Assembly: GCA_905182565.1 (NCBI GenBank) | Contig: CAJJCB010000026.1 | Location: 310,001-374,000 of the forward strand | Length of the DNA stretch: 64,000 nucleotides | Reading direction: 5' to 3' | Source of the DNA: Acidimicrobiaceae bacterium | GTDB taxonomy: Bacteria > Actinomycetota > Acidimicrobiia > Acidimicrobiales > Poriferisodalaceae | Part shown: positions 5,645-6,205 of the stretch, in pieces | Layout: each line of letters starts with the position of its first letter | How positions within the stretch are numbered: position 1 is the stretch's first letter | Program-made: the position numbers and the translations under genes | Notes under the pieces: model-generated | Database searches by the model: none | What the model saw: only the letters and a program-made list of their open reading frames with translations | Told to the model about the DNA's origin: nothing

Positions 5645-6205
5645 TTAATAACCACGGTTTAAGAAGGTGCCTAGTCCCTTTTCGACTTCTCCGGTCGCTG
5701 AAATAAAAATCCAGGAAGGCTGGCGGTTGATTCCGTAGCTTCTCCATAAATCCCCATTCAGATCAGGGATGTGAGTTAAAAAATCTAGCTGGTGTAGGTC
5801 AATAAAACTTTCCATGGCATCGACGGTGTCGCGTCCAGGAACACTAATAACTAGTAACTCATTGTCGACTGAATGTGCCGCTGCGACCGCAGGGGCTTCT
5901 CTGTTACATGCGAGTCACCAGGGTGCCCAAAACCACAAAATTATGTCTTTGCCGATGACCGAGTCGACGTCAAAGGGTTGGCCAGACAACGTTACCTGCC
6001 CGAGTTGCTGCAACTCATAGGGAATAGGAGCAATCGTTTTTTCTAACTCAGAGGGCGCAGAGGCTATTGTCGATTTTTGTGAAAGTGGAGGGCTTGAGAC
6101 ACTCACAGCCGTCGTCTCTTCGAGGAATTGAGCTTCATCGGTGCTCTCGGCACATGCGGTAGCGATTAATGCCACTACAAAAAAAGCGATACATCGTCGA
6201 GCCAT
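5645..6205 (-). CDS. TlpA/thioredoxin-fold lipoprotein with in-frame TGA (candidate selenoprotein)
   Basis: If TGA 5915-5917 is read through, this is a 186-residue exported thiol-redox protein. The signal peptide ends in a lipobox LIATAC (Cys 18). A Ser/Thr/Pro-rich linker follows, then the thioredoxin fold from about residue 63. The active site reads WFWAPW-TGA-LAC, so the TGA (codon 97) replaces the first Cys of the normal WAPWCxxC and Cys 100 remains. After TGA the frame is open for 89 codons to TAA 5645-5647 and encodes the rest of the fold: ELLVISVPG, then SYGINRQPSWIFI with the conserved cis-Pro, then SATGEVE. Selenocysteine at 97 is my inference, backed by the hairpin at 5877-5896. A nonsense mutation or sequencing error (TGT or TGC to TGA) is the alternative. 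It heads a likely operon with the SRPBCC and septum-formation-like genes. Confidence 0.75.
5877..5896 (-). promoter_or_regulatory. SECIS-like hairpin downstream of the in-frame TGA
   Basis: In the message, GCC, an unpaired C, and CUGC form the 5' arm; GGUC is the apical loop; GCAG, an unpaired C, and GGC form the 3' arm. That gives 4 + 3 G-C-rich base pairs around one C/C mismatch. Outside the core, GAA (5897-5899) could pair with UUC (5871-5873) across a 3-nt bulge. The loop begins 26 nt after the TGA. Bacterial SECIS elements are known as coding-region hairpins with a small loop having G in its first two positions, roughly 16-37 nt after UGA; this one fits all three criteria. Pairing was found by eye, without an energy calculation. 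Confidence 0.55.

Follow-up and report, generated by a model that had tools for sequence, protein, structure and literature searches.

A candidate SECIS hairpin in a UGA-containing gene for a TlpA/ResA/DsbF-type thioredoxin of the Acidimicrobiia

The UGA-containing gene and its hairpin

The window analyzed here, which is the whole stretch of 64,000 nucleotides, carries on its minus strand an open reading frame that starts at 6205, contains an in-frame TGA at 5915-5917 and ends with a TAA at 5645-5647. Reading through the TGA gives a protein of 186 residues, and the list of open reading frames shows only the 96-aa frame that ends at the UGA. Read from 5917 on the minus strand, the sequence is UGACUCGCAUGUAACAGAGAAGCCCCUGCGGUCGCAGCGGCACAUU, within which we have found the hairpin GCC-C-CUGC-GGUC-GCAG-C-GGC. 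The features of the locus are given below, with positions relative to the U of the UGA (+1) where a plus sign is used.

5645..6205, minus strand: putative selenoprotein gene, 186 codons from ATG to TAA with UGA as Sec at codon 97; the predicted product is a lipoprotein thioredoxin of the TlpA/ResA/DsbF type
6152..6154, minus strand: Cys18, probable lipobox cysteine (LIATAC), invariant in 14/14 aligned Sec homologues
5915..5917, minus strand: in-frame TGA (U97), opposite the first active-site Cys in the alignment with DsbF (WAPWCPTC)
5906..5908, minus strand: Cys100, resolving Cys of the U-x-x-C motif
5877..5896, minus strand: SECIS-like hairpin, +22..+41
5885..5888, minus strand: apical GGUC loop, +30..+33, 26 nt after the UGA
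5881..5892, minus strand: upper stem CUGC/GCAG (4 bp) with its loop
5880..5893, minus strand: C.C mismatch below the upper stem (5893 against 5880)
5877..5879, minus strand: GGC, the 3' arm of the 3-bp lower stem, pairing with GCC at 5894-5896; less conserved than the upper stem

The read-through protein passed the Pfam cut-offs for AhpC-TSA (36.2 bits, cut-off 26) and Redoxin (31.2 bits, cut-off 26.6), has a WxxC-type active site that reads WAPW-U-LAC at the UGA, and carries an invariant Q162-P163 in the cis-Pro region. Its best solved relatives are the Mycobacterium proteins DsbF (3ios, E = 9.8e-25) and MPT53 (1lu4, E = 2e-22), which share the WxPWCxxC region although they use Cys. The similarity to DsbF runs on through the UGA and is enough to assign the fold and to place the active site. 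The LIATAC signal and Cys18 suggest that the product is a lipoprotein and would be anchored by lipid. None of the NCBIfam models reached its cut-off; the closest selenoprotein model, WAxxUGC_long (NF041054), gave 18.8 bits against 300, and the protein falls outside that group, whose motif is U-G-C versus U-L-A-C here. Related UxxC selenoproteins, either thiol-disulfide isomerase-like or TlpA-like (cd02966) or of the Redoxin/AhpC-TSA type, have been described (PMC13188914, PMC9312934), the first sighting of such types being in the Sargasso Sea set (PMC1088965). They have in common with the present protein a thioredoxin fold, Sec as the first residue of the CxxC and matches to the AhpC-TSA/Redoxin profiles. 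A literature search found no paper on the present Acidimicrobiia subfamily. Judging from the sequence, the element is a SECIS, and the UxxC selenoprotein in which it lies belongs to a type already known in broad terms but not yet covered by an NCBIfam model.

The earlier note had placed a SECIS-like hairpin of 4 + 3 bp, with a C/C mismatch and a GGUC loop 26 nt after the TGA, at 5877-5896, and this description proved exact. Its fold was strongly favoured in every context tried. The hairpin was the minimum-free-energy and the centroid structure over 46 nt (-12.6 kcal/mol) and was retained over 91 nt; every pair had a probability of at least 0.99 in contexts of 60-150 nt, and the 20-nt hairpin by itself had an MFE of -9.7 kcal/mol. 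The significance of folding for this single sequence was low (z of -0.80 over 46 nt and -1.38 over 91 nt). When the protein was held fixed and codons were drawn with the usage of the window, 5.7% of the synonymous recodings folded equally well, a 4-bp stem at that place appeared in 40% of them and a 4-bp stem with the GGUC loop in 1.7%. These statistics are weak, and hence only comparison shows that the hairpin exceeds chance.

The hairpin has what is required of a bacterial SECIS in general, a short stem-loop downstream of the UGA with G at the start of the loop. The published bSECIS model sets an upper stem of 4-16 bp, 16-37 nt from UGA to apical loop, an MFE of -7.5 kcal/mol or lower and a G within the first two loop positions (PMC13188914). 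The 4-bp upper stem, the 26 nt, the MFE (-9.7 and -12.6 kcal/mol) and the GGUC loop of the present hairpin all lie within these four limits. Loop size, the GG at its start, stem length, spacing and MFE agree with the bSECIS consensus of the same work, although the present element is far more uniform, with one position and one GGUC loop throughout the clade. The loose bSECIS rules also fit, at scattered positions, 29 of 50 homologues with Cys in place of Sec, so that agreement with the model does not discriminate on its own and we have not used it as evidence of specificity. No covariance model of Rfam, the SECIS families included, matched at the gathering threshold, nor did any in 5800-5960 at E up to 10.

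The SECIS of Escherichia coli fdhF, whose sequence was confirmed in E. coli records, is similar in its GGUC apical loop, its 4-bp upper stem, the one-base irregularity beneath and its location downstream of the UGA within the coding frame. At the place of the C.C mismatch fdhF has a bulged U. It differs in that its loop lies about 18 nt after the UGA (counted from the sequence) versus 26 nt here, and the stem sequence is different; we do not claim nucleotide homology.

Conservation of the hairpin among UGA and Cys homologues

Of the 39 genomes of the family, 37 have an orthologue that contains a single in-frame TGA, and in the first 30 orthologues inspected the motif GCGGTCGC was present at the same place in all 30. 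This conservation bears on another reading of the TGA, that it is a true stop or the result of a sequencing or assembly error or of frame decay, leaving a pseudogene or a gene for a short truncated product. Elsewhere in this genome, itself an assembly in 27 contigs, TGA serves as an ordinary stop (18 of 44 long open frames). Against this, the TGA occurs at the identical codon in those 37 genomes and in independent named assemblies, it is always at the position of the active-site Cys, and the conservation of the protein reaches the C terminus. A pseudogene or sequencing error is refuted by these comparative data, and we give this reading practically no weight. The UGA, aligned with the catalytic Cys of homologues and kept across species, behaves as that of a selenoprotein gene.

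A scan of genome contigs gave 80 further homologues, those of Acidimicrobiia mostly with UGA and those of Mycobacterium, Lentzea, Nocardia and others with Cys. In a first deduplicated set, the 4-bp upper stem was found in 44/44 motif-bearing UGA homologues and in 0/41 Cys homologues. Homologues from the whole class were added later, and the final set of about 150 related genes contained, after deduplication, 99 distinct UGA-containing and 50 Cys genes. We designated as class A the sequences with GGUC at +30 and a fully paired 4-bp upper stem, a group that comprised 73 of the 99 UGA homologues and none of the 50 with Cys. The other 26 UGA homologues were five near-class-A sequences (GGUC with an imperfect stem), which with class A make up those carrying the GGUC loop, and 21 with another layout. 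Retention of the hairpin by Cys homologues would have pointed to codon composition, and it was seen in none of them. Mycobacterial genes, from the genus of DsbF and MPT53, are among the 50. By this comparison, retention of the hairpin is confined to genes that appear to encode selenocysteine.

The stem also varies in the way expected of paired bases, the compensatory changes sought by the earlier note being present at two pairs. Among the 73 class-A sequences, pair +27/+36 was UA in 31, GC in 21 and CG in 21, paired in 73/73, and pair +28/+35 was GC in 56 and UA in 17; these counts are of sequences and not of events. Independent changes were few, with about seven at pair 27-36 on a tree from which the SECIS columns had been left out. 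Positions +27 and +36 are the third bases of codons +8 and +11, respectively. The change at +28/+35 goes with a replacement of Ala-Val-Ala by Ser-Val-Glu in which the stem is preserved. In an alignment of 66 sequences the covariation score was 0.505, compared with 0.161 +/- 0.016 after shuffling (0/500 shuffles reached 0.505) and at most 0.17 in slid registers. A test of independent pairs on the tree had too few supported pairs for significance.

The codons under the loop are constrained as well. In the 44 close UGA homologues codon +9 was GCG in 44/44 and codon +10 was GTC in 44/44, with no synonymous variation, GCG being 19% of the Ala codons and GTC 23% of the Val codons here. In the same 44 sequences the third bases of the invariant Ala -3, Pro -2 and Ala +11 vary (1.75, 1.81 and 1.35 bits). 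Codon +9 of the Cys homologues specifies G, T, D, M or H, so the Ala is specific to the UGA homologues; the protein appears to be shaped by the RNA, and the Ala at codon +9 appears to serve the RNA.

All this has to be weighed against the view that the hairpin is a by-product of Ala-rich, G+C-rich coding and that any recoding needs no such element. In 40% of the synonymous recodings, as given above, the A-P-A-V-A-A stretch forms a 4-bp stem, and an identical 18-nt hairpin scoring 17.8 bits exists in a GatA/amidase-like Gly-Ser-Ala stretch of the same genome without a UGA. The earlier statement that the element is hard to explain by coding alone was therefore too strong for the lone hairpin. 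The by-product view is at odds with the presence of the hairpin in 73/99 UGA and 0/50 Cys homologues, with codons under the loop that have no synonymous variation, with Ala residues found specifically in the UGA homologues and with the Ser/Glu replacements that preserve the stem. The UGA versus Cys comparison largely refutes it, and we regard it as very improbable. When a covariance model of the SECIS was used to scan the genome, the site in the window scored 52.4 bits and the next matches were without an in-frame UGA. The GatA/amidase-like copy, at the centre of locus L141 with no UGA nearby, is a recurrence by chance and a warning against predicting a SECIS from one hairpin.

Some loci deserve separate mention. 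A second UGA paralogue that keeps the same SECIS was found in one genus (L128, L129, L131, L133-L135), with a long acidic low-complexity linker between the signal peptide and the thioredoxin domain. L172 (G087:C154) has a Cys copy in tandem beside a UGA copy, and adjacent UGA copies are found in the L208 region (G317:C11) and at L201. L187 (G317:C36) has A-U at +28/+35, giving the hairpin CCAC-GGUC-GUGG, and two in-frame TGAs that form U-P-H-U, with the hairpin after both. In G038, the sole genome compared from the same genus as that of the window (93% complete), SelB was present and the UGA orthologue was not found, reflecting either a recent loss or a missing contig.

A second arrangement of hairpins

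The 21 UGA homologues of the other layout, which we call class B, had two tandem hairpins at +15..+29 and +33..+47 from the UGA.

Class-B loci: L087, L089, L110, L125, L158, L161, L162, L167, L177, L185, L193-L195, L199, L201-L205, L207

Both hairpins showed compensatory changes, with double changes at six pairs, and a covariation of 0.293 that was reached by 0/500 shuffles (0.116 when shuffled). The second hairpin has an invariant G in a loop of the A-G-[UG]-N-N type, 34 nt after the UGA, and it fits the bSECIS model with its 5-nt loop, G at the second position and this distance. Class A and class B paralogues coexist in G046 (L171, L207) and G071 (L186, L204). A single SelB was detected in each of these genomes and would therefore be required to recognize elements of both classes. 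The chances seem to us evenly balanced that there are two SECIS layouts in one selenoprotein family, read by one SelB, with the class-B pair as a distinct SECIS arrangement.

Selenocysteine machinery and the proposed decoding of the UGA

As for a selenoprotein gene, the genome contains selA, selB, selC and selD, with SelA, SelB, SelD and tRNA-Sec all encoded. SelB scored 270.9 bits, over its cut-off, and is encoded directly after SelA; the tRNA-Sec has a TCA anticodon (UCA) and scored 65.5 bits. SelD (L017:1489-2544, outside the window) has itself one in-frame TGA, in the context GAG-U-ACK. A short hairpin, GGUC-CGGAU-GACC, follows this UGA. SelB was found in 39/39 genomes of the family. Over the 296 genomes of the class it was present in 40 of the 42 with a UGA homologue versus 123 of the 254 others (p = 1.4e-9), and in two of the seven genomes that have only a Cys homologue. 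Together with the comparison of homologues, this encoded machinery supports the proposal of the earlier note that the hairpin is a signal for recoding.

It is known in general that structure downstream can promote the readthrough of a stop codon, and from this it could be argued that the UGA is decoded as something other than Sec, by near-cognate Trp or Cys readthrough that the hairpin stimulates. The UGA occupies the position of the catalytic Cys, at which a Trp would abolish activity; moreover, the genome encodes a complete Sec system, including tRNA-Sec(UCA), and UGA homologues co-occur with SelB. We think that such decoding has hardly any likelihood. By far the most probable interpretation, of which we are nearly certain, is that the hairpin (5877-5896) represents a bacterial SECIS for the translation of UGA as Sec in an exported oxidoreductase of the TlpA/ResA/DsbF type. 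In the mechanism that we propose for this SECIS, SelB carrying Sec-tRNA-Sec would bind the hairpin in the mRNA, and the UGA 26 nt upstream of the loop would be decoded as selenocysteine instead of causing termination. Sec would then take the place of the nucleophilic Cys at the start of the CxxC (WAPW-U-LAC) in an exported, probably lipid-anchored oxidoreductase with a thioredoxin fold. The protein may act as a reductase or isomerase that receives electrons from a donor in the membrane, for which a DsbD/CcdA-like protein encoded in the genome is an example.

These data would add an exported UxxC selenoprotein of the DsbF/TlpA type that nearly all members of one actinobacterial family have, that occurs across the class to which they belong, and that gene callers cut at the UGA. 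The roughly 100 homologues with UGA and 50 with Cys make it an exceptionally clear example of a protein whose codons, and even residues, appear to be set by an RNA signal. Paralogues with the two layouts could be used to ask directly what SelB recognizes.
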